Below are positions 50,021 through 63,444 of a stretch of 64,000 nucleotides of DNA, one piece after another. Each line of letters begins with the position of its first letter. Position 1 is the stretch's first letter. Under the pieces are notes generated by a model. That model ran no database searches. It worked only from the letters and a program-made list of their open reading frames with translations, and was not told the DNA's origin. This DNA comes from Christensenella intestinihominis. GTDB lineage: Bacteria > Bacillota > Clostridia > Christensenellales > Christensenellaceae. The stretch is from assembly GCF_001678845.1 (NCBI RefSeq), contig NZ_MAIQ01000002.1, positions 186,001 to 250,000 on the forward strand, given 5' to 3'. A program made the translations under genes and the position numbers.

Positions 50021-50794
50021 TTATTCAGCGTCCTTATCCTGCCTCGGCTGCCCGTTCCATGCGGTAAGGCCGCCGTCCACTGGGAGGTTATGCCCGCAGA
50101 TGTGGGCGGCTTCCGGCGAGGCCAGGAACGCAACCGCGTCCGCGACCTGCCCGGGCAGGCCGATTTTATGATCCGGAAGCGCGTCCTTGAAGGCCCGCAT
50201 CACTTCGTCCCCCGTACCTGACAGGAACATCGGCGTGGCTGTCGCGGAGGGCGACACGCAGTTGATCCGTATCCCCTTTTCCATATAATCGAGCGCCGCC
50301 GCCCGTGTAAGGCTTATTACCGCGCCCTTGCTGGCACAATAGAGCGGGGCGTTATAATCCCCCCGGATTCCGGAAACCGAGGCGACATTCACAATGCTTC
50401 CGCCGCCCGCCTCCAGCATCAGGGGAATCACCGCCTTCATCATCAGGCAGGTTCCCTTCACATTCACATCGAACAGCAGGTCGTAATCCTCCTCCGCCGC
50501 TTCGTGCAGCAAGCCGCCGCGGAAAACGCCCGCACAGTTCGCGAGCACATACGAATCCGCCTTTTCGCGCCGGGCCAGCGCGGCCAGCGCGCCGATGCTT
50601 CCGGCGTCCGTCACATCGGTTTCAAGGCAGGAAAAGCGGCCCTTCCATGCGCTAAGCTCTTCTGCCGTTTTCCGCAGCCCGTCCGCGTCCCGGTCGGCAA
50701 GGACGGCGGTGCAGCCGAGCCGCAAAAATTTTTCCGCAACGGCTTTTCCAATCCCGCTGCCCGTTCCTGTCACAATTGCCAATTGGTTCTCCAT
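50021..50794 (-). CDS. Short-chain dehydrogenase/reductase
   Basis: The 257-residue classical SDR has NAD(P) loop TGTGSGIGKAVAE, ANCAG at about 88-92, catalytic Ser in NVASVSGIRG, Tyr/Lys in YCASKGA and the C-terminal HICGHNLPVDGGLTAWNG. Asp at the end of the second strand (LADRDADG) favours NAD. It is the last gene of operon 2 and likely oxidises or reduces a sugar intermediate. Confidence 0.93.
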   Translation of the reverse strand: MENQLAIVTGTGSGIGKAVAEKFLRLGCTAVLADRDADGLRKTAEELSAWKGRFSCLETDVTDAGSIGALAALARREKADSYVLANCAGVFRGGLLHEAAEEDYDLLFDVNVKGTCLMMKAVIPLMLEAGGGSIVNVASVSGIRGDYNAPLYCASKGAVISLTRAAALDYMEKGIRINCVSPSATATPMFLSGTGDEVMRAFKDALPDHKIGLPGQVADAVAFLASPEAAHICGHNLPVDGGLTAWNGQPRQDKDAE

Positions 50795-50807: not shown

Positions 50808-51704
50808 TCAAATCAGGCCATACTGCGCCGCTTTGTCCTTCAGGAATTCCAGGGCTCCTGCTTCCAGCTTTTCAAATTCCTCTCCGCGGACGCCCCTGGA
50901 AATATCCCGCCATACGCCTATAATTGCACTCATATCCCCTTCGGGCAGCATAAACACCTCAAGGTCCATATAGCCGTCGAAGCCAATCTGCTTCAGGGCG
51001 GAAAAGAATTCGTCCCAGCAGAAATCCCCCATACCCGGGAAACGCCTGTTCCGTTCCGCAACGTGCAGCGCGGCAAGCCGCGGCCCGGCTGTTTTGACTG
51101 CCCCCGGGATGCTGTCTTCCTCAATATTCATATGGAAGGTATCGAAATGGACCTTCACATTCGGATTCCCTACCCTGTCCACAAAGTCCGACGTTTCCTC
51201 GCTTGTGTTGAGCAGGAACGCTTCAAACCGGTTCAGCGTCTCAATGGCGCAGGTTACGCCGCATTCCTCCGCCGGCTGCGCCGCAAGCCGGTACGCTTCC
51301 GCTGTCCGTTCCATCAGTTCTTCTTTATAGGCCAGCGAAAGCGCCTGCGTCCTGCGTACCGGCCACTTTGTATAGTGGCACCCCACGAGCAGGTCCGCGT
51401 CCATTTTTTGCATCAGCAGGAGGAGTTTGTGCATATACCGAATACCATTTTCGCGGATGGCTGCATCGTCACTGAGCATATCGCATTCTTCCGGGAATCC
51501 CCCGCAAAAAGCCAGCTTGATTCCTTTTTTGTTCGCGTAATCGGCAATCCTGAGGCCCTTTTCTTCCCCGCCGGTTTCCTCCATGAGGTCCCCGAAAGGG
51601 ATTTCCAGCGCGTCAAAGCCCAGCCGTGCCGCGCGGTCTACGGCCTTATAGGGATCGTATGAGAATGAGTTGATTCCAATTAAATAGTGAGTTCCGAATT
51701 TCAT
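50808..51704 (-). CDS. Sugar epimerase/isomerase-like TIM barrel (D-psicose 3-epimerase type)
   Basis: The 298-residue AP-endonuclease-2-type barrel resembles D-tagatose/D-psicose 3-epimerases. It has the start MKFGTHYLIGINSFS, catalytic Glu in CAIETLNRFEAF, metal ligands in VKVHFDTFHMNIEE, LHVAERNRRFPG and the final Glu in MDLEVFML. The metal set (Glu, Asp, His, Glu) looks complete. It would epimerise a ketose at C3 before or after phosphorylation. Confidence 0.9.
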   Translation of the reverse strand: MKFGTHYLIGINSFSYDPYKAVDRAARLGFDALEIPFGDLMEETGGEEKGLRIADYANKKGIKLAFCGGFPEECDMLSDDAAIRENGIRYMHKLLLLMQKMDADLLVGCHYTKWPVRRTQALSLAYKEELMERTAEAYRLAAQPAEECGVTCAIETLNRFEAFLLNTSEETSDFVDRVGNPNVKVHFDTFHMNIEEDSIPGAVKTAGPRLAALHVAERNRRFPGMGDFCWDEFFSALKQIGFDGYMDLEVFMLPEGDMSAIIGVWRDISRGVRGEEFEKLEAGALEFLKDKAAQYGLI

Positions 51705-51743: not shown

Positions 51744-52133
51744 TCAAAGGGATTCGCAGAGTTCCACAACCACGCCGTCCGGATCGGAAACCAGGAGGGC
51801 GCGCTTGCCGATTTCCGGCATTTCCGAGATTTCCTGCACGAAGGGCACTCCCTTTTCCCTGAGGAACGCGTCCCACGCGCGCACGTCGTCCACATCAAAG
51901 GCAATATGGCGCAGGCCGCGGCGGTTTTCCGCATTTTTTCCATCCTCCGTGCCGCCGCGCAGGTCGAATAATTCCATATACGTATCGCCGGAAATCTTCA
52001 TATAGACAAGCGTACACGGCCCCATATCCGCCCGCGACACCTCTTTGAAGCCCAAAATATCCCGGTAAAATTCTACAGCCTGCTCAATTTCCATCGTGTT
52101 GACGGCAATATGATGCGTATGGTTTACCTTCAT
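51744..52133 (-). CDS. VOC-family (glyoxalase-like) protein
   Basis: The 129-residue protein shows the two beta-alpha-beta-beta-beta modules of the vicinal oxygen chelate fold: HTHHIAVNTMEIEQAVEFYRD, YMELFDLRGG, GLRHIAFDVDDV and DPDGVVVELCE. Metal ligands His (first module), Glu, His and Glu are in the right positions. A lactoylglutathione lyase- or epimerase-like role is possible. In operon 2 it may handle a reactive carbonyl product (inference). Confidence 0.88.
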   Translation of the reverse strand: MKVNHTHHIAVNTMEIEQAVEFYRDILGFKEVSRADMGPCTLVYMKISGDTYMELFDLRGGTEDGKNAENRRGLRHIAFDVDDVRAWDAFLREKGVPFVQEISEMPEIGKRALLVSDPDGVVVELCESL

Positions 52134-52166: not shown

Positions 52167-52895
52167 TTATTCCGCTTCCTGGTATTCCCCGTATTTGGTT
52201 TCCTTGGTTTCAAAATCGAACTGGATATCCTGCCCGATTCCGCTGAGCCGCCGCCAGCTTCCCATATGGAAGAACTGCGCGCCTTCTTCCACCATCTTTT
52301 CCGCGATCTCCCGCGAACGCACTTTCCCGGCGACCTCGATTTCCAGCTTGTCTCCCCAATTGTGGTACAGCCATTCGATATGCTCTACCTGCATCCGTCC
52401 AAAATGGATGCCCGCGCTTGTTTTTACGGAGGTAATGCCGAGGTCGACATATATCCTGCACAGCTCGTCCACGATTTCAAAGGGAAACTTGACCATCCAC
52501 AGCATGGGAATCACCTTGACCTCGCCGCCCGCGGCCTCGACAATCAGCTTCATTTCTTCCCGCACCTTGTCAAAATCCTTTGAGGCGGCCGCCGTTACGT
52601 TGAACCCCACGTCAATTTCGTCGAGGTGTTTTTCCCTCGCGTATTTGGTCAGGTACACCTTCATGTTCGTGGACATTCCGCCATAAGGGTATCCGACGAC
52701 CATTCCCGTCCTTGAATACCCGTTCCCGTATTCCACCTTCACCTCATTGATGAGGTCGCACTGCCCGGGGGCAATAATCGCCGAGCGCACGCTGTTTTTA
52801 TAGCCGTCCACCAGCTCCTGCCTTACAATATCTTCCGATAGGTATGAAATAAACGGCGAAGTAATCGCCCGTTTAACAAAATCTCTGTCGTACAT
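52167..52895 (-). CDS. DeoC-family aldolase homologue 3 (Schiff-base Lys kept, relay Lys lost)
   Basis: The 242-residue protein has the DeoC barrel layout: IDVGFN with Asp95, SVKTSAG with the Schiff-base Lys158, and LEIEVAGKVRS where the second catalytic lysine of DeoC is replaced by Glu187. Gly in this loop is replaced by Lys191. It could be an aldolase with altered chemistry or specificity. The start at 52895 follows GGGAGG, 13 bases after the second homologue. A long charged C-terminus extends the fold. Confidence 0.8.
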   Translation of the reverse strand: MYDRDFVKRAITSPFISYLSEDIVRQELVDGYKNSVRSAIIAPGQCDLINEVKVEYGNGYSRTGMVVGYPYGGMSTNMKVYLTKYAREKHLDEIDVGFNVTAAASKDFDKVREEMKLIVEAAGGEVKVIPMLWMVKFPFEIVDELCRIYVDLGITSVKTSAGIHFGRMQVEHIEWLYHNWGDKLEIEVAGKVRSREIAEKMVEEGAQFFHMGSWRRLSGIGQDIQFDFETKETKYGEYQEAE

Positions 52896-52908
52896 AATTT
52901 CCTCCCGT

Positions 52909-53595
52909 TTATTCCCAGTTCCGCAGAATATCCGCCGCATATTCCGAACTGATGTAATCCGCGCCCGCTTCAAGCAGCTCCCTGCACTTGGAAACGCTGT
53001 CGATATTACCCTGCGCAACCACTTTAACCTTTCCCCGCACTGCCGCTTTCACCTTCCGGACGTCCTCCGGCTCCACGCCGATCAGCATATCGTTCTTGTT
53101 TTCATCGGGGCGTGTATATACACCAATCGACGTACACACGCGGTCTATGCCTTCTTCGGCCGCAAGTCCGCACACTGTTTCAATCATCTCATCCGTCAGC
53201 CACTCGCATTCGAGGATCGCCTTTAAAACATGGCCGCCCGCGGCCTTCCGGCACGTCCTGAACTCGTCGCGCACAAGCTCCCAGTTTCCGGAGCGCACAT
53301 TGATATTGTGGACCACGAATTCAACCTGCGTTGCCCCCGCTTCGATGGCGTCCCCGATTTCAAACGCTTTCTGCTCGGGCAGGAAAATCCCGTGGGGATA
53401 GGAAATCACCGCGCAGATTTCAAGACTGCGCCCATTCAGGACTTCCCGTACCTTGGGAAGCATATTGGGAAATACCTGGATGCACTCGAAACCGAGATCG
53501 AGCGCCTCATACACCAGGTTGGATACGTGCGCATAATCATAATAACTTTCGAGGATGCGTCCCCCCATGATCCCGCCTAATTCTTTTGCTGTCAT
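52909..53595 (-). CDS. DeoC-family homologue 2 (both catalytic lysines absent)
   Basis: The 228-residue protein aligns with DeoC but its motifs have changed: VEFVVHN has Glu92 in place of the catalytic Asp, RVCTSIG has Cys154 where the Schiff-base Lys should be, and VKVVAQGN has Val193 in place of the relay Lys. It cannot be a class I aldolase by the usual mechanism; it may be a regulatory or structural partner or have another activity. The start at 53595 follows AAGGAG. It overlaps neither neighbour, but the gaps are only 13 bases. Confidence 0.78.
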   Translation of the reverse strand: MTAKELGGIMGGRILESYYDYAHVSNLVYEALDLGFECIQVFPNMLPKVREVLNGRSLEICAVISYPHGIFLPEQKAFEIGDAIEAGATQVEFVVHNINVRSGNWELVRDEFRTCRKAAGGHVLKAILECEWLTDEMIETVCGLAAEEGIDRVCTSIGVYTRPDENKNDMLIGVEPEDVRKVKAAVRGKVKVVAQGNIDSVSKCRELLEAGADYISSEYAADILRNWE

Positions 53596-53608
53596 CTCCG
53601 CTTCTCCT

Positions 53609-54289
53609 TTATCCAAACGATTTTACAATCTCGATTGCGGACTGTGTGTTGATGCCGAAACGCTCCACTCCCATCGCCAGCAGCTCGTCGAATTCCGCGC
53701 GCGTGCGGATGCCGCCCGCCGCCTTCACCTTCACTCCCGTCCCCGCCAGCTTCTTCTTGATCCTGCGGATTCGTTCGATGTTCGCGTCTCCCGGCACCCA
53801 GCCCGTGCCTGTCTTGAGGAAGTCCGCTCCGCTTTCCACAACGATCCCGCACGCCTTGTCCGCTTCCTCTTCCGTTAAACAATTCAGCTCGATCAGCACC
53901 TTTGTGAGGATCGGCCGTCCCGCGTTCCGCGCCAGCGCGATGATCTGCTTGAGTTCGTTCAGGACGTAATCGTATTCCCGATTCTTAAAACGCCCTACGT
54001 TCATCACGATGTCCATTTCCTCGATGCCGTCCTCGATCAGCCCCGCCGCCTCGAGGATTTTCGTCTGTGTTTTATGCGCCCCCGACGGAAAACCCACCGG
54101 GCCGCCCGCGTACACCCCGTCCACGTCCTTCAGCATTTCCGAAAGCTGCTTCATCCAGTTCGGAAGCACATGCACGTTGATGAACTTAAATTCCTTTGCG
54201 TAGCCCACGATTTCTTCAATATCCGCCATCGTATGGTGCGTCCTCACCGCGCTGATGTCGATCAGGTGCGCCGCTTCTTTTGCATTCAT
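53609..54289 (-). CDS. deoC: Deoxyribose-phosphate aldolase
   Basis: The 226-residue enzyme has all three DERA residues: Asp93 in MDIVMN, Schiff-base Lys159 in FLKTGTG and relay Lys189 in VKAAGGIRT. It should cleave a deoxy-sugar phosphate to an aldehyde and glyceraldehyde-phosphate, though its true substrate in this operon may be another sugar phosphate. The start at 54289 follows AGGAGG. It is the first of three DeoC-family genes in a row. Confidence 0.9.
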   Translation of the reverse strand: MNAKEAAHLIDISAVRTHHTMADIEEIVGYAKEFKFINVHVLPNWMKQLSEMLKDVDGVYAGGPVGFPSGAHKTQTKILEAAGLIEDGIEEMDIVMNVGRFKNREYDYVLNELKQIIALARNAGRPILTKVLIELNCLTEEEADKACGIVVESGADFLKTGTGWVPGDANIERIRRIKKKLAGTGVKVKAAGGIRTRAEFDELLAMGVERFGINTQSAIEIVKSFG

Positions 54290-54388: not shown

Positions 54389-54421
54389 CATTCCGCGGGA
54401 CGAAAGCCGTCCCGCGGAATG
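54389..54421 (-). repeat. Perfect 14-bp hairpin after the binding-protein gene
   Basis: CATTCCGCGGGACG (54389-54402) and CGTCCCGCGGAATG (54408-54421) form a perfect stem with a 5-base loop between the binding-protein gene and deoC. No T run follows, so an mRNA-stabilising role is more likely than full termination. Confidence 0.7.
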
Positions 54422-54456: not shown

Positions 54457-55566
54457 TTATTCTGGGAATAACTCGTTTACATTGTCCTTATCGATAATCA
54501 TGGAATGGGAAGCAAGCACCGCTTCTTCCGGGTCTTGGTCCGCCACTACCTTGTTGTACAGATACATAAACCCGTCAAACGATACGCCTGTGGGGTTCTG
54601 GCCGATGACCGTCATTTCCCCTGTGCGCACATAGTCAAGATTTTCCGCAGTTTCGTCATGGCCAATCACGAACACTTCGCCCGTTTTGCCCATGTCGGCG
54701 ATTGCCTTCGGCGCGCCGTAAGGGCCTCCTGCCACGCAGTAGATCGCTTTCACATCCGGGTTTGCCGTCAGGATGTCTTTGGTAAGCGTATAGGTCTGGT
54801 CCGCACTGTCGTTCGCTTCAAAATCGCCTACGCTGACATAGCCTTTGGACTCAAGGTAATCTTTTACGGTGTTCCGCTTGATTTCCAGGTTTTCCATCGT
54901 GAAGGAAGCCGTGATGATCGCAAATTTCGCGCCCTGCTCTCCGCCGAGGGCCTTGTCCATCGCTTCCGCAACCGTCTGGCCTGCTTCCTTGTTGTCCTGG
55001 CCGATAAACACGAACCGCTTGCTCGGCTTTTCGCTTTCCCCATAAAGGGTCACAACCGGGATGCCCGCGTCAACCGCCGCGTCGATATAGTTCTCCACAC
55101 CGGTTACGAAGGGCGTGGTAACGATGCCGTCGTACTGCTGGGCAACCGCCGCTTCAAGGCCGTTGTTGATAACCGTCGCGTCGATGCTTTCACCGAGGTT
55201 GATGTTGTCGATCGTCACATTATGCCCGGCAAGGTATTCCGTCGCCTCTGCAACGCCGTCCTGCACGAGGTTCCAGAACGGATTGTTCTGGAAGCCGAGG
55301 AAGGCAAAGCGCAGCGGCTTTTCCGGCTCCTGCTCGACAATTTTCACGTTTTCGACCTCGCCGACCTGCTTCCACTCGTAAGAGCCGGCGGCTCCGGCGT
55401 CCGCGGATGCTTCCGTCCCGGCGGATTCTTCCGGCGCAGCGGACTGGGAAACCTCCGCAGACTGGGAAGGCTCTTCGCTGGCGGCGGGCGCCTGCTGTGC
55501 GCAGCCGACGAACGCGACTGTTGCCAGCAGGACCGCTACTACAATCAGACTGATAACCTTTTTCAT
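54457..55566 (-). CDS. Sugar-binding lipoprotein of operon 2
   Basis: The 369-residue protein has a lipoprotein signal (MKKVISLIVVAVLLATVAFVG then Cys22), a Ser/Glu/Ala-rich linker to about 60, and a periplasmic-binding-protein type 1 domain: FLGFQNNPFWNLVQDGV, DGIVTTPFVTGVENYIDAAVDAG, IGHDETAENLDYV. It belongs with the ATPase and permease upstream. The linker resembles that of the operon 1 protein, though the binding domains differ. Confidence 0.92.
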   Translation of the reverse strand: MKKVISLIVVAVLLATVAFVGCAQQAPAASEEPSQSAEVSQSAAPEESAGTEASADAGAAGSYEWKQVGEVENVKIVEQEPEKPLRFAFLGFQNNPFWNLVQDGVAEATEYLAGHNVTIDNINLGESIDATVINNGLEAAVAQQYDGIVTTPFVTGVENYIDAAVDAGIPVVTLYGESEKPSKRFVFIGQDNKEAGQTVAEAMDKALGGEQGAKFAIITASFTMENLEIKRNTVKDYLESKGYVSVGDFEANDSADQTYTLTKDILTANPDVKAIYCVAGGPYGAPKAIADMGKTGEVFVIGHDETAENLDYVRTGEMTVIGQNPTGVSFDGFMYLYNKVVADQDPEEAVLASHSMIIDKDNVNELFPE

Positions 55567-55603: not shown

Positions 55604-57127
55604 TCAGCTTAAATTGGATTTCTTTTGCCCGGTCGCGTGCATCATGATGTTTTCCTCGGAATAATCCTGCGGTTCCACGATGCCGCTTACCCTGCCCATG
55701 CTCATGACGACAACCCGGTCGCTGAGCATCAGCAATTCCGGGAGCTCTGACGAAATCAGCAGGATGGTAATCCCCTGGTCCGCCAGGTCGCGGATGATCC
55801 CGTATATTTCAGCCTTGGCCCCCACGTCGATGCCGTGTGTCGGTTCGTCGAGGATCAGGATTTCGGGCTCTGTTTGCAGCCACCTTGAAAGCACCGCCTT
55901 CTGCTGGTTGCCGCCCGAAAGGTCGCCGATCCTTTTTTTGATGTTTGTCGTTTTGATATTCAGCTTTTCCACATATTTCTGGGCCGCTGCCGTTTCAAGC
56001 TTTTTATCGATCAGCTTCCCCTTTTTCAGTTTTTTGTAACTGGCAATATTGATGTTGTCGCCCACGCTGAGGTCCGGAAACAGGCCCTTCACCTTGCGCT
56101 CCTCGGGCACCAGCGCCAGCTTGTACCGGGCCGCGTCATACGGGCTGCGGATACGGACGGGCGAGCCCTTAATCAGCACCTCGCCGCTGTCGATCTTGTC
56201 AAAGCCGAATATGGATTCCATCAGCTCGCTCCGTCCCGCGCCCACAAGGCCGCCGAAGCCGAGGATTTCGCCCTTGCGGGCGGCAAAGCTGATGTCCTCA
56301 AACTTATTTTTTCGGCTCAGGCCGCGCACCTCGAGGATCACCTCGCTGCTGATGCTTGCCGGATCGCGCTTTTCCATGCTGCTCATCTGGTTTTCAAGGT
56401 CGCGCCCCACCATCAGGCGTACGGCCTCGTCGATGCTGATCGCCGTTTTATCGACCGTTTTAATCATGACCCCGTCGCGCAGGACGGTGATTTTATCTGC
56501 GACCTCGAACACTTCCTCCATCCGGTGCGATACATAGACAATCGAGGTCCCTTCCCTGCGCAGCTTGCCGATAATGTTCATCAGCGTATGCGTTTCCTTG
56601 GCCGTCAGGGCCGCGGTCGGCTCGTCCATCATCAGCAGCTTGGGCCTTAAAGACAGCGCCTTCACAATTTCCACAAGCTGTTTTTGGGCTACGCTCAGTT
56701 TTTCCACCGGGGTATCCGGCCCGATATCCGGCACCTCGAGCTCCCGGAGCAGGGCGACGGCGTTCTCGCGCAGCTTGCGCTTGTCGATAAACGCCCCGCT
56801 TTTCGGGTAATGCCCGAGATAAATGTTATCCATTACGCTGAGGTAAGGGATCAGGGAATTCTCCTGGTGAATCATGGAGATGCCGATGTGCTGCGCCTCG
56901 ATGGGGGAAGGCAGCTCTACCTTTTGTCCTTCCCAGATGAGGCTGCCCTCTTCCGCCCGGTAATAGCCGAAGAGGATATTCATGAGCGTCGATTTCCCGG
57001 CGCCGTTTTCCCCAAGTATCGCATGGACTTCCCCTTTGCGGAAATCGATGTTGATATCGTTCAATACTTTGACGCCCGGGAACGATTTGGAAATATGTTC
57101 TACACGGAGCAGTTCCGAAGTTTCCAT
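55604..57127 (-). CDS. Sugar ABC transporter ATPase of operon 2, RbsA-like
   Basis: The 507-residue protein has two ATPase domains. The first has Walker A GENGAGKST (39-47) and Walker B MMDEPTAAL. The second has Arg in place of the Walker A lysine (GLVGAGRSE), LSGGNQQK and LILDEPTHGID. The start at 57127 follows AAGGAGG; the frame continues 21 codons upstream into the permease gene. It lies 10 bases after the permease stop. Confidence 0.95.
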   Translation of the reverse strand: METSELLRVEHISKSFPGVKVLNDINIDFRKGEVHAILGENGAGKSTLMNILFGYYRAEEGSLIWEGQKVELPSPIEAQHIGISMIHQENSLIPYLSVMDNIYLGHYPKSGAFIDKRKLRENAVALLRELEVPDIGPDTPVEKLSVAQKQLVEIVKALSLRPKLLMMDEPTAALTAKETHTLMNIIGKLRREGTSIVYVSHRMEEVFEVADKITVLRDGVMIKTVDKTAISIDEAVRLMVGRDLENQMSSMEKRDPASISSEVILEVRGLSRKNKFEDISFAARKGEILGFGGLVGAGRSELMESIFGFDKIDSGEVLIKGSPVRIRSPYDAARYKLALVPEERKVKGLFPDLSVGDNINIASYKKLKKGKLIDKKLETAAAQKYVEKLNIKTTNIKKRIGDLSGGNQQKAVLSRWLQTEPEILILDEPTHGIDVGAKAEIYGIIRDLADQGITILLISSELPELLMLSDRVVVMSMGRVSGIVEPQDYSEENIMMHATGQKKSNLS

Positions 57128-57137
57128 ACGCGCCTCC

Positions 57138-58112
57138 TTACTGCTTGCTGCGGCGGAACATATCGAATGCGCAGGCCGCGATGATAACAAGGCCGATCGT
57201 AATCATCTGCCAATAGTTGGAAACCATCAGCAGCACGAAGCCGTTGCGGATAACGCCGAGGATGCCCGCGCCGATCAGCACGCCGATAATGGAGCCCTGG
57301 CCGCCCGAAAGGCTGCAGCCGCCGATGACCGCCGCGGCGATTACGTCTAGTTCCATTCCCGAACCGGCCGCCGTATCCGCGGAATTCAGGTTGCCCGCCG
57401 TGATGATCCCGGCGAAGGCCGCGAGTACGCCGGTAATGGCATATACCGCGAATTTAACACGGTCTACCCGGATACCCGAAAGCTTTGCGGCTTTTTCATT
57501 TCCGCCCACGGCGAATATGTTGCGGCCGAATTCCGTTTTGGTAAGGACGATATGCCCGACCACGATGATAATGAACATCAGGATAACGGGAACGGGAATC
57601 GGTCCGACCGTTCCGCCCAGGACAGCGACGGGATTATCGAAATTAATCGGAAGGCCGCCGGAAATCAGGTAGGAAATTCCCTTTACGATGTTAAGCATTG
57701 CCAGCGTTGTGATGAACGGGTTAAGCTTCAACTTGACCACGCACAGCCCGGATGCAAAGCCGAGGCCCGCGCCCAGCGCAAGCGCAAGGACAAGCCCAAG
57801 CCACGGGTTGATGCCCGCAACGACGAGCGCCGCACAGCTTACGCCGCCGAGCGAGATGAAACTGCCCACGGAAAGGTCGATGCCGCTCGTGATAATGACG
57901 AACGCCTCCCCCACGGCGATGATGCCCATGACGGATATCTGCCGCAGTACGTTGATCGCGTTCGTCGCGGTGAAAAATACCGGGTTGAACAGGCCGATAA
58001 ACACACACAGCGCGGCCAGCACGATCAGTATTCCAAGCTCGTTAAATGTTTTTTTGTTCGCCTTCCTGATGTTGTTTGGAGCGGCGTCCGCTCCTGTCGT
58101 AAAATTCCACAT
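57138..58112 (-). CDS. Sugar ABC transporter permease of operon 2, RbsC-like
   Basis: The 324-residue protein has a cytoplasmic N-terminus of about 25 residues and about ten membrane helices: ITSGIDLSVGSFISLGG, GGNEKAAKLSGIRVDRVK (ATPase contact loop) and GGCSLSGGQGSIIGVLIGAG. It follows the kinase gene by 14 bases. The order kinase-permease-ATPase-binding protein differs from operon 1. Confidence 0.93.
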   Translation of the reverse strand: MWNFTTGADAAPNNIRKANKKTFNELGILIVLAALCVFIGLFNPVFFTATNAINVLRQISVMGIIAVGEAFVIITSGIDLSVGSFISLGGVSCAALVVAGINPWLGLVLALALGAGLGFASGLCVVKLKLNPFITTLAMLNIVKGISYLISGGLPINFDNPVAVLGGTVGPIPVPVILMFIIIVVGHIVLTKTEFGRNIFAVGGNEKAAKLSGIRVDRVKFAVYAITGVLAAFAGIITAGNLNSADTAAGSGMELDVIAAAVIGGCSLSGGQGSIIGVLIGAGILGVIRNGFVLLMVSNYWQMITIGLVIIAACAFDMFRRSKQ

Positions 58113-58126
58113 ACACGTTATCCCCC

Positions 58127-59659
58127 TTAAAATGTGAATTGGCTGAGTTCTTTATATGCAGGCATCAAGCTTTCGTAGAAACGCTTAAATACCGGTAGAA
58201 GCTGCCTGTATTTTTCCATATCCCGGGCATTGGGCTCCGCGCTGTCGCTCAGCTGCACCACGTCGCTTACCACGTCGAGGCTTTTAATCAGCCCCGCGCC
58301 CACACCCGCAATGAGCGCCGCCCCAAGCGCCCCGATGTACTGGAGGTTTTTCGGGCGGATCATTTTCACGCCGAACATGTCGGCCAGAATCTGCATCCAC
58401 AGCCTGTTGTTCGCTCCCCCGCCAATGAGGCGCGCTTCGTCCGTCATAACGCCCATCATTTTATAGAAATCCACGCCCATCATCAGGTCAAAAGCCGGGC
58501 CTTCCATCGCCGCCCTGAGGATATCCGCCTTAGTATGGTGCATTTTCAGGCCGACAAGGCTGCCCGCGAGGCTCGCGTCGGAATAAAATGTATTGCCGCT
58601 GAACATGGAGGGCAGGAAAAACACCCCGTTTGCCCCGGCGCCCGCCTGTGCCGCAAGCTCTGTCGCCGCTTCGTGAACCTGTTTTCCATATTTTTCAGAG
58701 AGGTCCGCGCACAGGTTCCGGACCACCCATTCATAGGCCGCGCAGGCGGAATGGGAATGCACGCTTGTAAAATAGGTATCATTGCCCACATAAACCACGT
58801 TTGACATAAAGCCGTCGGCCATCAGGGGCTTGTCATTGTTCACGCCCACCCAGCCGGCGGTTCCGAGGCAGGCCACAAAGGTGTTTTTCTTGCGTACCCC
58901 GCCGCCAAGCGCGCAGGCGTAATTATCCCACGAGCCGAGGACGACCAGCGTATCTGTGGTGAGGCCCATCTCTTCGGCAGCCTGTTTTGTAAGGTTGCCG
59001 ACCGGCGTTGTGTTTTCGGCGGGAACCAGGAGCTTTTCTTCCTCCACGCCGGAAATGCGCATCAGCTCTTCATCCCACTTATGCGTGTTCATATTATAGA
59101 GCCCGCTCATTCCAGCGTCGCCGTAATCGGTATTTTGGTAAATTCCCGTCATCCGGTATGCAAGGTACTCCTTCGGGTTCAGGAATTTAACAGCCTTTTC
59201 ATATATTTCCGGCATATTGCGCTTCATCCACAGCAGCTTGGAAGAGGGGTACAGCGCAACGTCAAAGCTGTTGCCCGTCTTTTCATAGCGCTCGCGCGCC
59301 CCGATCTGCGTAAGGATATATTCCGCTTCCTTCGTGCTGCGGGCGTCCATCCACGTCATAACCTGCTGGAGCAGGAGGTTCCCGTCTTTATCGATTGGAA
59401 TCGCCGTCATTCCATGCGAACTGAAGGAAATCGCTTTGACGTCCCTGGGCGCAACCCCGGAATTTGCCACGACCTCATGCGTCGCGTCTTTTACGGCCTG
59501 CCACCATTCCTCCGGGCGCTGCTCGGCCCAATCCGGCTGGGGGTAATATGTTTTAATCGGATAATATGCCTCCGCCAGGAAATTACCGTCGGTATCGAAA
59601 ATGCACGCTTTATCGCCGCTGGTTCCAAAATCGTGTGCCAAAACATATTGACTGCTCAT
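58127..59659 (-). CDS. FGGY-family carbohydrate kinase (xylulokinase-like)
   Basis: The 510-residue kinase has the phosphate loop LAHDFGTSGDKACIFD, PQPDWAEQRPEEWW, the catalytic Asp in MTWMDARS and the C-terminal ATP loop RLIGGGANNRLWMQI. It should phosphorylate an imported ketose or polyol. The start at 59659 follows AAAGGAAAA. A candidate operator lies 55 bases upstream. It is the first structural gene of operon 2. Confidence 0.9.
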   Translation of the reverse strand: MSSQYVLAHDFGTSGDKACIFDTDGNFLAEAYYPIKTYYPQPDWAEQRPEEWWQAVKDATHEVVANSGVAPRDVKAISFSSHGMTAIPIDKDGNLLLQQVMTWMDARSTKEAEYILTQIGARERYEKTGNSFDVALYPSSKLLWMKRNMPEIYEKAVKFLNPKEYLAYRMTGIYQNTDYGDAGMSGLYNMNTHKWDEELMRISGVEEEKLLVPAENTTPVGNLTKQAAEEMGLTTDTLVVLGSWDNYACALGGGVRKKNTFVACLGTAGWVGVNNDKPLMADGFMSNVVYVGNDTYFTSVHSHSACAAYEWVVRNLCADLSEKYGKQVHEAATELAAQAGAGANGVFFLPSMFSGNTFYSDASLAGSLVGLKMHHTKADILRAAMEGPAFDLMMGVDFYKMMGVMTDEARLIGGGANNRLWMQILADMFGVKMIRPKNLQYIGALGAALIAGVGAGLIKSLDVVSDVVQLSDSAEPNARDMEKYRQLLPVFKRFYESLMPAYKELSQFTF

Positions 59660-59713
59660 CTTTTTTTCCTTTCCTGTGATTCCTGTTGTTTTCGTGACCA
59701 ATATTTTTCATTC

Positions 59714-59785: not shown

Positions 59786-60559
59786 TCAAATTTGTATGAC
59801 GTTTACGCCATGGGCTGCAATTTTTTGGAGTTCTTCTTCATTCTCCGCATAAGCATCGGTGATAAGAGTGTGCACCCGGTCAATGCTGCAAACTTTATAA
59901 GCACTTACCTTGCCAATTTTTGTATGGTCGCACAGCAGGATCAATTCCTTGCTGTTCTCCACAATCATCGACTTCAACTCGCTGAGGTTGAGCCGCGGGA
60001 TCGAATAGCCGTTTTTGGCGTTGATCGCCTGCGAGCCTACAAACGCTTTTGTAAAATTATACCGGCTCAGCATATCGATCGTCATTTTCGACGCCATGCT
60101 TTCGTCTTCCGCTTCCAGCTCGCCGCCCGGTATCAATATTTTAAATTGTTTATTTGCCACAAAGCACCTGGCAATATTCATCGCGGAGCAAACGATCGTT
60201 ACCCCGCTGAGGTCAAACCTTCTTCCCAGGAGGGCGGCAAATTCAAAGGTGGTCGATCCGCCGCCGACATAAATAAAATCGTTATCCTCGACCATCTCCA
60301 CAGCAGCCTCGGCAATTTTTTTCTTATCCCCGCTGTTTTTCGATGTGCGTTCGATAAAGGAGCCGTAGCCCGTCTGAACCGACACCCCGCCGTGAAACGA
60401 CTGAATCCGCTTTTCCTTTTCAAGCACCTTTAAATCCCTGCGGATTGTGGAGGGTGAAAATTTCAGCGCATCGCTGATTTCCTGGATTGTCGTTACATTT
60501 GCGTTTGCTATGAAGTCATAGATTTCTTGTTGTCTTTGGGTAATCAAGTTATAATCCAT
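59786..60559 (-). CDS. DeoR/GlpR-family transcriptional regulator of operon 2
   Basis: The 257-residue protein has a winged helix (QRQQEIYDFIANANVTTIQE, LKFSPSTIRRDLKVLEKE, SFHGG) and a sugar-phosphate sensor with YVGGGSTTFEFAALLG, IVCSAMNIAR and AFVGSQAINAKNGYSI. It is only distantly similar to the regulator at 47676. It is the promoter-proximal gene of the catabolic cluster. The start at 60559 follows GGGAGAGAG. Confidence 0.92.
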   Translation of the reverse strand: MDYNLITQRQQEIYDFIANANVTTIQEISDALKFSPSTIRRDLKVLEKEKRIQSFHGGVSVQTGYGSFIERTSKNSGDKKKIAEAAVEMVEDNDFIYVGGGSTTFEFAALLGRRFDLSGVTIVCSAMNIARCFVANKQFKILIPGGELEAEDESMASKMTIDMLSRYNFTKAFVGSQAINAKNGYSIPRLNLSELKSMIVENSKELILLCDHTKIGKVSAYKVCSIDRVHTLITDAYAENEEELQKIAAHGVNVIQI

Positions 60560-60582
60560 GCCAATCTCTCTCCCTTGACGTA

Positions 60583-60611
60583 ATTGTATCAAAGTGAAAA
60601 AATTTTGTCAA
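60583..60611 (-). promoter_or_regulatory. Sigma-A promoter of the operon 2 regulator
   Basis: On the minus strand TTGACA (60611-60606), a 17-base spacer and TACAAT (60588-60583). Confidence 0.8.
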
Positions 60612-61010: not shown

Positions 61011-61541
61011 ATGGCTATATCAGAAAAAAGGATTTCTAAGATTATTACCAAAATAAATTCCGGCAATGCTTTGGGTTGGGGTGATGTCTTGTATTATGAA
61101 CAGTATATTTTCCAGCAAAATAATTTCAAACATACCAATATGTTCAGCACCAGCTATAGCGCCGCTAAATTATATGTCGATGCAGGCAGCGGCCGGTTTT
61201 ACGCGACTCCTTTGAACACATCGGAGTACGCATTCCGGATTTATAACAAATCGGAGATTGAGGATATTCGCAGGGAAGTAAATTCCAATACACCGGCCGA
61301 TCCAAGGACCGCCCGGACGACAGGCGCTCTCCTCGGCGGTATAATCGGAAGTACCATTGCGGAAAACATCGCAAAATCGCAGAACCTGGTAACCTTCGTA
61401 GGTCTTGCGATCAGGTTCCGCGACGGTTCCCAAAGATTCATAAATTTCATTTCCCCGCAGGCTCCCGTAAAGTTTGATTCGTGGAAATATAAAAGTGTTA
61501 TGCAGGTCGTGACAGCGGCTTATGATTTACTGAAGCCCTGA
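61011..61541 (+). CDS. Uncharacterised 176-residue protein with a glycine-zipper-like segment
   Basis: I recognise no family. The start at 61011 (MAISEKRISKIITKINSGNA) is tentative because the ribosome site is weak; a longer frame begins at 60909. The central part has DVLYYEQYIFQQNN and AKLYVDAGSGRFY. Residues about 98-120 (ARTTGALLGGIIGSTIAENI) look like a short glycine-zipper or membrane-insertion segment. The end overlaps the recombinase tail on the other strand by 44 bases. It has a consensus promoter. Confidence 0.6.
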   Translation: MAISEKRISKIITKINSGNALGWGDVLYYEQYIFQQNNFKHTNMFSTSYSAAKLYVDAGSGRFYATPLNTSEYAFRIYNKSEIEDIRREVNSNTPADPRTARTTGALLGGIIGSTIAENIAKSQNLVTFVGLAIRFRDGSQRFINFISPQAPVKFDSWKYKSVMQVVTAAYDLLKP

Positions 61542-63444
61542 CTCCGCGCTGCTTCCGGCATATTGGGAAATTTCTAAAACTTATAGTCCTGAAAAAATGC
61601 GGAGTTGGCTCCGACGCAGTATGCCAGAAGGGATAGCGCGCGCGTCGCCTACGGCTCGCGCTTGCTTGAACCCCCGCCCGGGGGTCCGAATTCCCTGAAC
61701 ATACAAAAAAGCCATTTCGTACCTTCGCGTACAAAATAGATGCAGGTAAAAAGGGGCCCCGCGCGAGCCCAGCGTAGCGGGTCGCGTGGGGAAAGGAGCG
61801 GCAGTGGAGCATGAAAAAGCCCTCGCATATGCGAGGGCTTTGAAATCGCGGAACTTGTCGCGACGTGGTGTGCCAGAAGGGATAGCGCGCGCGTCGCCCT
61901 CGGCTCGCGCTTGCTTGAACCCCCGGGGGCCCGAATCCCCCGAACATACAAAAAAGCCATTTCGTACGCTTCGCGTACAAAATGACTTTTGGTGTAGCCT
62001 CTTTCAATAAATCCGAACCCTCTATATCCCGAAGGGAAATGGTCTTTGCACCTTCCGTATAATTTAATGTGATGACGACCTTATCGTCATATAAATAAAT
62101 CGCGTTGACGAAGCTGTCTATCAGCCTCTGTCTCTGCTCCCGTTTCGTGATATCGCTGTCCCGGAAACGATAGATGAAAAAGGATATCTGCTCCCTCGTC
62201 AATAAAGGATGCCGTATCTTCTCCTGCAGGATACTCGTTTGCAGTTTGCTTTTCGTTTCCTCCAGTTCCCGCAGCCTTTCCTTTGTCGATTCTGTCAAAA
62301 GTCCCTGCTGGATCGCGTCCAGCAAATTTCGTATCCCATTTTCCGTTTCCGCAAGCTGCCGTTCCAGCAAAGGAAGCTCCCTGCTCTCCTTGGATTGCAG
62401 ATTCAACAGCGCGTCGATCAGCCGTTCCAGTTCGTCGTCATGCATCAATTCCTGCATAATGCGGCTGACTACAAAGTTCTCGATCCAGTCCTTTTGCACA
62501 GCTTTTTTATCACAGGTCTTTCTTTGCTTGGTATTCGTGCATTTGTAGTAGCGATAGATCTTCGCCGTATGGCTCGTACCGCTTTCCCCCACCATAAAGG
62601 CTCCGCACTTTCCGCAATACAGCTTTGTCGTCAGCAGATAATCGTCCTCCGCCTTGTGTCTTGCCGGAGCCTTCTTGTTCTGCTTCATCCGCTCCTGCGC
62701 ACGTTCAAACAATTCTTCTGAAATGATCACAGGCATCCCGCCCGGCGTTACGATATCCCCATAGCGGTATTCGCCAAGATACCGCCTGTTTTTCAGCATG
62801 TGGGAAATGATATTCAAAGAAATCGGTCCGCCTCTTGAAGAACGGATCCCCTTAGCGTTCAGCCCGTCCGCGATCTCTTTCATTGTTGCACCTTCCGCAT
62901 ATTGGTTGAAAACTTCCTGCACAATGGGGGCAGCAACTGGATCGATCTGAAAATGCCGTTCGCTGTCGACCACATATCCCATCGGTATACTGCACCCGTT
63001 AGATTTGCATTTCAGCGCATTTTCTTTCATGCCGCGCCTGACCTTTTCGGAAAGCTCTGCCGAAAAGAATTCTGCATATCCCTCTAAAACCGATTCCAAC
63101 AGGATACCTGTCGAGTCCTCTGCGATACTCTCCCGTGCTGAAACGACTTTCACGCCGTTTTTCCGCAGGATCATCTTATAATGGGCGGAGTCGTAGCGGT
63201 TGCGCGCGAAGCGGTCGAGCCGCCATACGATCGCCACATCAAACAGCCCCTTTGTGCTGTCCTTTATCATTCGCTGGAAATCCGGCCGGTTATCCGTTTT
63301 AGCCGAAAGTGCCCGGTCAATATATGTTCCAAGAATATTGATATCCTGTTTTTCTGCAAACTCCATACATTCGCGAATCTGTCCTTCAATGGATTCCTCG
63401 CGCTGGTTGTCCGAGGAATACCGCGCATAGATCACTCCGTTCAT
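61498..63444 (-). CDS. Large serine recombinase with extended C-terminal read-through tail
   Basis: The 648-residue protein has a resolvase domain (residues 1-145, MNGVIYARYSSDNQREESIE with the catalytic Ser, WRLDRFARNRYD), a recombinase domain (about 155-260), a zinc ribbon (LYCGKCGAFMVGESG ... KTCDKK) and a coiled coil at about 340-420. The family usually ends shortly after the domain ending TISLRDIEGSD at about 475. Here the frame continues about 165 residues into diverged repeats (WLFCMFGGFGPPGVQASASR and GRRARYPFWHTTSR twice). The catalytic part looks intact, so it may still integrate or excise an element. The start is ATGA-coupled to the gene at 63441. Confidence 0.9.
   Translation of the reverse strand: MNGVIYARYSSDNQREESIEGQIRECMEFAEKQDINILGTYIDRALSAKTDNRPDFQRMIKDSTKGLFDVAIVWRLDRFARNRYDSAHYKMILRKNGVKVVSARESIAEDSTGILLESVLEGYAEFFSAELSEKVRRGMKENALKCKSNGCSIPMGYVVDSERHFQIDPVAAPIVQEVFNQYAEGATMKEIADGLNAKGIRSSRGGPISLNIISHMLKNRRYLGEYRYGDIVTPGGMPVIISEELFERAQERMKQNKKAPARHKAEDDYLLTTKLYCGKCGAFMVGESGTSHTAKIYRYYKCTNTKQRKTCDKKAVQKDWIENFVVSRIMQELMHDDELERLIDALLNLQSKESRELPLLERQLAETENGIRNLLDAIQQGLLTESTKERLRELEETKSKLQTSILQEKIRHPLLTREQISFFIYRFRDSDITKREQRQRLIDSFVNAIYLYDDKVVITLNYTEGAKTISLRDIEGSDLLKEATPKVILYAKRTKWLFCMFGGFGPPGVQASASRGRRARYPFWHTTSRQVPRFQSPRICEGFFMLHCRSFPHATRYAGLARGPFLPASILYAKVRNGFFVCSGNSDPRAGVQASASRRRRARYPFWHTASEPTPHFFRTISFRNFPICRKQRGVRASVNHKPLSRPA
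61611..61738. repeat. Diverged direct repeat, copy A, in the recombinase tail
   Basis: About 127 bases starting CCGACGCAGTATGCCAGAAG. It is similar to copy B at 61860-61984, with changes and a different number of C/G in the GGGGG stretch, so the repeats are old. Confidence 0.75.
61816..61841. terminator. Perfect 26-base palindrome between the repeats, terminator-like
   Basis: AAAGCCCTCGCATATGCGAGGGCTTT. It is symmetric, so it can act on both strands, but the flanking T runs are short (three to five). Confidence 0.6.
61860..61984. repeat. Diverged direct repeat, copy B, containing a terminator-like hairpin
   Basis: The copy begins GCGACGTGGTGTGCCAGAAG. Near its right end lies GTACGCTTCGCGTAC (61964-61978), and on the minus strand the enclosing stem is followed by GGCTTTTTTG. 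The hairpin sits at the point where the normal recombinase would end. Confidence 0.7.

Follow-up and report, generated by a model that had tools for sequence, protein, structure and literature searches.

Deoxyribose-phosphate aldolase (DERA) has been engineered extensively as a biocatalyst, and three of its residues, Lys167, Lys201 and Asp102 in the Escherichia coli numbering, are treated as its defining machinery. Its relatives in the DeoC/LacD family (PF01791), LsrF among them, include aldolases that occur beside FGGY kinases. In plants, the PDX1.2/PDX1.1-1.3 heteromer offers a case in which a lysine-less barrel paralogue is kept beside an active one. For DERA itself, the roles of the Schiff-base lysine (Lys167), the relay lysine (Lys201) and Asp102 are described in two papers (PMC6016325, PMC8403123); the second gives characterised DERAs as dimers or tetramers.

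The window analysed here, a stretch of 64,000 nucleotides from Christensenella intestinihominis, carries three consecutive DeoC-family genes. A sequence-only reading had noted that just one of them keeps the full catalytic set and that the operon also holds sugar enzymes. It took the retention of two altered paralogues to suggest a hetero-oligomer, a new aldolase reaction or a regulatory subunit. Here we follow the three genes through their residues, conservation, recurrence, gene sets and predicted folds. We tentatively favour a reading in which the third protein (P3) would work through a Schiff base with a new set of acid-base residues, the second (P2) would be its lysine-less partner, and the first (P1) would be responsible for a separate step.

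Three DeoC-family genes in a sugar operon

Transcription runs in the order DeoR-type regulator, FGGY kinase, permease, ATPase, sugar-binding protein (SBP), P1, P2, P3, VOC protein, psicose-epimerase-like protein and short-chain dehydrogenase/reductase (SDR):

59786..60592, minus strand: DeoR/GlpR-type regulator (NCBIfam DeoR-family matches, all below cut-off)
58127..59701, minus strand: FGGY-family sugar kinase (PF00370/PF02782; XylB model 306.4 bits, below the cut-off of 380.25)
57138..58112, minus strand: ABC transporter permease (PF02653)
55604..57190, minus strand: ABC transporter ATPase (PF00005, two stretches)
54457..55566, minus strand: sugar-binding protein of a ribose-type ABC transporter (PF13407)
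53609..54289, minus strand: P1, canonical DERA-type aldolase, D93/K159/K189 (TIGR00126, 162.6 bits)
52909..53595, minus strand: P2, DeoC-family protein without the Schiff-base lysine, E92/C154/V193, Y66 (TIGR00126, 122.9 bits)
53074..53115, minus strand: P2-specific hairpin after strand 6, residues 161-174, containing PDENKND
52167..52895, minus strand: P3, DeoC-family protein with D95 and the Schiff lysine K158, E187 for the relay lysine, Y69
51744..52133, minus strand: VOC (glyoxalase-fold) protein (PF00903)
50808..51704, minus strand: sugar epimerase, D-psicose 3-epimerase-like (NF051856, 251.1 bits, below the cut-off of 300)
50021..50794, minus strand: SDR (PF13561, PF00106)

The real start of the ATPase gene is probably later than that of the open reading frame (ORF) listed. 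The gene set supports the sugar-operon setting claimed for the altered genes. The kinase and the epimerase score below the cut-offs of the nearest named NCBIfam families, so their names do not give the substrate; with the autoinducer-2 kinase model, the kinase reaches 179.7 bits (cut-off 528). Between the SBP gene and P1 lies a perfect G+C-rich hairpin with 13-base arms (54390-54420), perhaps an mRNA stabiliser or attenuator; G003, another genome of the genus, has a counterpart with slight imperfections in the same gap. An ORF at 61498-63444, directly upstream of the operon, by eye resembles a large serine recombinase and has a repetitive tail.

Every catalytic residue that had been named for the three proteins proved correct, and the residue columns confirm that only P1 keeps the full set. 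The closest matches of all three are DERAs. P1 has equivalents of Asp102, Lys167 and Lys201 and scores above the curated cut-off of TIGR00126, the DERA equivalog (117.3 bits; the gathering score of the DeoC/LacD superfamily model PF01791 is 23.8 bits). P2 also scores above it, with Cys154 in the strand-6 Schiff-base column, and by this score alone would be named a DERA. P3 reaches 71.0 bits, below the cut-off; it has the Schiff lysine, Lys158, invariant in a 58-row alignment, and Glu187 in the place of the relay lysine. It is predicted to adopt the DERA fold and ends in an extension of about 25 residues.

No lysine stands in the strand-6 column of P2, as had been claimed, and an alternative Schiff lysine there was rejected. 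The only lysines on its strands are Lys125 (strand 5) and Lys191 (strand 7). The first aligns with E. coli Lys137, a column that holds lysine in all 106 intact ORFs of the survey given below; the second lies two residues before the relay column. A Schiff base on one or the other of these is conceivable. Cys154 was rejected as a conserved nucleophile, being Thr in the metagenome-assembled genome GPF-1; Glu92 is kept in all three P2 orthologues, and the strand-5 residues Lys125 and Glu129 of intact DERAs are retained. The predicted model keeps the fold despite the loss of all three catalytic residues. In it the P2 hairpin forms two short strands; this element is missing from the canonical rows compared (E. 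coli, P1-type, T2_1 and G918), and its PDENKND is identical in GPF-1.

P1 has a stand-alone copy in the source genome (L011 7513-8193, contig C23), with neither P2 nor P3 alongside. The two share 98.97% DNA identity (7 differences in 681), and the match extends one base beyond the coding sequence on each side, into flanks that are unlike. In G003 P1 and its solo copy are identical (0 differences in 681). Between species P1 is 86.3% identical in DNA, against 99% and 100% within species. On this sequence pattern, the copies would best be explained as evolving in concert, through gene conversion confined to the homologous stretch; that P1 was repeatedly duplicated afresh into one site is less likely. 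Homogenisation with a copy that stands without P2 and P3 makes P1 an improbable dedicated subunit of either, and its position apart from the P2-P3 pair in GPF-1 counts against such a role too. A dedicated P1-P2-P3 complex, as the simplest reading, was rejected on the ground of this homogenisation. P1 looks like a shared ordinary aldolase.

The same evidence bears on the possibility that P2, by analogy with PDX1.2, acts as a pseudoenzyme subunit that regulates or stabilises P3 or P1. Such a role would fit a protein that has lost all three catalytic residues with its predicted fold kept, and known DERAs are dimers or tetramers (PMC8403123). The homogenisation of P1 with a solo copy that lacks P2 beside it speaks against P1 as the dedicated partner, and we regard this reading as unlikely.

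Recurrence of the altered genes

We use alpha for a putative DeoC subfamily that has the Schiff lysine, Glu, Met or His for the relay lysine and Tyr for Phe76, and beta for P2-type proteins; residues at E. coli 102/167/201 are given in that order. The source genome (G000) has 11 PF01791 matches. Three of the 11 form a second, unlinked triplet on contig C25, with D/K/K, D/K/M and C/L/E. Its neighbours are an ABC transporter, a ribokinase-like kinase (267.7 bits against a cut-off of 299.65) and a small protein, with no NCBIfam match, that we take to be akin to rhamnose mutarotase. The SBP of this locus is 48% identical to that of the window. Both triplets are found in G000 and G003 among the six genomes of the genus, and the G003 operon has the gene order of the window plus a second VOC gene. 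P2 is missing from four of the six genomes, which counts against the reading we favour.

Genome G002 has an altered pair, C/K/H and Y/V/I, whose genes overlap by 4 bases between ABC genes and an FGGY kinase, with no canonical DeoC gene adjoining. A species-level contig scan with exact P2 peptides, which reaches close relatives only, gave one more P2 carrier, GPF-1, which is more distant than the congeners. There P2 and P3 adjoin, with 9 bases between them. On the same contig, about 11 kb from the pair, lie the ABC genes (SBP, ATPase, permease), a VOC gene, a P1 homologue and an FGGY kinase, the last and the VOC gene both adjoining the P1 homologue. Identity between the window and GPF-1 is 76% for P3, 72% for P2 and 69% for P1; among the neighbours it is 57% for the permease, 53% for the ATPase, 51% for the SBP, 48% for the kinase and 35% for the VOC protein. 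The triplet, whose absence in relatives would have told against the sequence-only reading, is present in G003 and rearranged in GPF-1, though not in the four genus genomes without P2. What is conserved as a unit is the P2-P3 pair, not all three genes.

Searches at wider range brought in a single further alpha among the loci read. The phylum search for P3 gave 4 of 398 genomes at E 1e-19: its own genome, two with canonical proteins and G918, of another class. In G918 an alpha-type gene (D/K/E) lies 49 bases before a canonical DERA whose start codon we chose. Upstream are ABC genes, a gene that by eye is aldehyde ferredoxin oxidoreductase-like, an FGGY kinase and a GntR-like regulator. This alpha has no beta gene with it, in a genome with two TIGR00126 matches, and we count that against the favoured reading. 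Class searches with mixed alignments retrieved 168 and 216 of 391 genomes at E 1e-25, with at most 134 bits (A2) and 170 bits (A1) outside the genus and 332-477 bits inside it; the ORFs read from class-level loci were D/K/K, with no altered protein among them. The order search for P2 gave 7 of 396 genomes at E 1e-22. G000 and G003 held the orthologues, and the other five three D/K/K proteins and two broken or cut frames. For the second-triplet alpha, 45 of 396 genomes matched at E 1e-30, again with orthologues in G000 and G003, and the 18 other loci read were all D/K/K. When plasmids were searched by tblastn (P0002, P0003, second-triplet alpha, G918 alpha), identity was below 39% among the matches listed, which were mostly annotated deoC or unannotated; the DeoC proteins of the two regions inspected were D/K/K. 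Altered DeoC pairs were not found among the matches listed in a literature search, and a search for DERA in Christensenella gave no match.

DeoC-family genes are numerous in the genus. In G000 two intact D/K/K genes stand in tandem (L010 8497-10042, contig C24) near another FGGY-type kinase and ABC genes, and such pairs are present in G002 and G003 too. Elsewhere in G000 (L014 6480-9616, contig C9) a canonical DERA, a PfkB-like kinase (by eye), an FGGY-type kinase and ABC genes stand in a row. Genome G004 encodes a DeoC-family protein without the catalytic residues, L/T/R/V/A (L185 8512-9231; contig C1, about 1800512-1801231), at a locus that by eye resembles a bacterial microcompartment.

Relationships and selection

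Our residue survey covered 123 distinct DeoC-family ORFs from 185 loci, a non-random sample. D/K/K is found in 106 of them, every one of which carries Phe76 and Lys137. The altered proteins make up 14 rows (13 proteins and one duplicate fragment), and all 13 have Tyr at E. coli 76. The rest are the L/T/R/V/A protein of the microcompartment-like locus and two short or gapped ORFs. The alpha set comprises P3 and two orthologues, the G918 protein, the second triplet's two and the G002 protein. The betas have no residue in common at the three catalytic columns (E/C/V, E/T/V, C/L/E, Y/V/I). The strand-5 lysine column (E. coli 137) is lost in five of seven alphas and kept in five of six betas, and all six betas have the strand-5 Glu, which is missing from the alphas; the strand-5 losses of the two classes are roughly complementary.

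A first tree of 90 rows left the altered proteins, with their long branches, unplaced. With the catalytic columns removed and the G002 beta omitted as a long branch, a 35-row tree gives the alphas as one clade (97/94). With the G002 beta included (43 rows) the alpha clade has 97/96 and that beta falls inside it, a position flagged by the program as a meeting of two long branches. The betas scatter, and a single clade of five, when tested, was not rejected (p-AU 0.293). When hold-out profiles were compared between the two altered classes, each altered protein scored better with its own. A profile of 78 canonical DERAs gives yet higher scores to the proteins of the window and of the second triplet, and the G918 protein scores 151.7 with the canonical profile and 101.1 with that of P3; only the G002 pair scores highest with its own class. 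The profiles thus lend no support, over plain DERA kinship, to orthology by class for the proteins of the window and of the second triplet. The canonical profile's higher scores, the lack of a demonstrated beta clade and the absence of a common beta residue at the catalytic columns count against the favoured reading. Taken as sequences, the altered genes point to an undescribed branch of the DeoC/DERA family.

Purifying selection on P2 and P3 is strong. Between two sister species, dN/dS is 0.087 for P1, 0.052 for P2 and 0.036 for P3; for the second triplet the values are 0.050, 0.027 and 0.141, and in each triplet the most constrained member is the relay-less alpha protein. Decay of P2 and P3 is rejected by these ratios. 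The loss of catalytic residues might otherwise suggest decaying duplicates or sequencing artefacts, which is hardly credible for genes that are full-length in G000, G003 and GPF-1, strongly constrained between two species and recurrent in unlinked operons. Purifying selection and recurrence in other operons support the proposal that retention of the altered paralogues serves a purpose.

Constraint was also followed at 19 pocket positions, of which D16, T18, C47, D102, K167 and K201 come from PMC6016325 and PMC8403123 and the others are further positions of the DERA pocket. Compared with GPF-1, P3 is identical at 19/19 of them and at 166/223 elsewhere (p 0.005), and P1 at 18/19 and 137/206 (p 0.006). 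Compared with G918, P3 is identical at 14/19 and 52/193 (p 8e-5). For P2 against GPF-1 the figures are 17/19 and 147/209, a marginal result (p 0.058) that counts against the favoured reading. P3, with Asp95 and Lys158 retained and a predicted DERA fold, might simply be a DERA for another aldehyde donor, Glu187 and Tyr69 replacing Lys201, with no heteromer and P2 on its way out. We find this improbable: a dN/dS of 0.052 and 72% identity to GPF-1, above the kinase and the transporter, indicate that P2 is not decaying.

Another possible reading, nearly as likely as a P2-P3 pair, is that P2 and P3 are independent homomeric enzymes for two steps. P3 would then be an aldolase or lyase that uses a Schiff base and another donor, and P2 a sugar-phosphate isomerase or epimerase that works without a Schiff base and puts the barrel to new use. 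In its favour, purifying selection on both is strong, P2 keeps Lys125 and Glu129 as well as the Glu92 of its orthologues, and the G918 alpha does without a beta. Yet the betas share nothing at the catalytic columns, which is odd for a single conserved reaction, and every beta found (6/6) adjoins an alpha. The two genes do not keep one order: beta precedes alpha in the window and GPF-1, and alpha precedes beta in the second triplet and G002; this counts against the P2-P3 partnership that we favour.

A proposed division of labour and its parallels

Under the favoured reading, the operon would import a sugar, the FGGY kinase would phosphorylate it and the three DeoC-family barrels would degrade it. 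We infer the catalysis of P3, its complex with P2, the order of steps and the substrate as follows. P3 most likely binds the phosphorylated sugar as an imine through Lys158, with Glu187 and Tyr69 replacing Lys201 and Phe76, for a retro-aldol reaction or an imine-based isomerisation or elimination ahead of P1. P2, forming no imine at the usual site, would most likely be a partner subunit of P3, perhaps contributing its hairpin. P1, an ordinary DERA-type class I aldolase, would carry out a later retro-aldol cleavage as a step of its own, and the VOC protein, epimerase and SDR would prepare or clear intermediates. A bolder and doubtful extension is that alpha and beta form an obligate two-subunit family, in which the lysine-less beta completes or gates the alpha site for a non-DERA reaction on a phosphorylated sugar, in at least three sugar operons of the genus.

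If the favoured reading holds, a natural, conserved branch without the relay lysine, together with a partner without the Schiff lysine, would represent another way to run or gate the barrel, and the alpha/beta branch would supply enzymes with new acid-base sets. Databases probably mislabel some of these proteins: two that lack the Schiff lysine, P2 and the beta of the second triplet (L009:9817-10449, 145.7 bits), score above the TIGR00126 cut-off, so annotation pipelines that apply it likely call both deoxyribose-phosphate aldolase.

The closest described system is DERA, which the window proteins resemble in predicted fold, sugar-catabolic context and many barrel motifs, P1 with all three catalytic residues. 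P2 differs in lacking the equivalents of D102, K167 and K201, and P3 that of K201; both have Tyr for Phe76, and the two are paired. A barrel without the relay lysine, like P3, exists in the engineered Bacillus halodurans DERA K184L (PDB 6msw), for whose activity a literature search found no report. That protein is a laboratory point mutant with Leu, whereas proteins of the P3 type occur in nature with Glu, Met or His at that position and carry further changes on strand 5. LsrF-type aldolases share the DeoC/LacD fold and the context of an FGGY kinase and ABC transporter, but the window proteins match DERAs best and the window kinase scores below the autoinducer-2 kinase cut-off. PDX1.2 resembles P2 as a lysine-less barrel paralogue beside an active one; it belongs to another family and pathway, and for P2 the case for a complex comes from gene adjacency.
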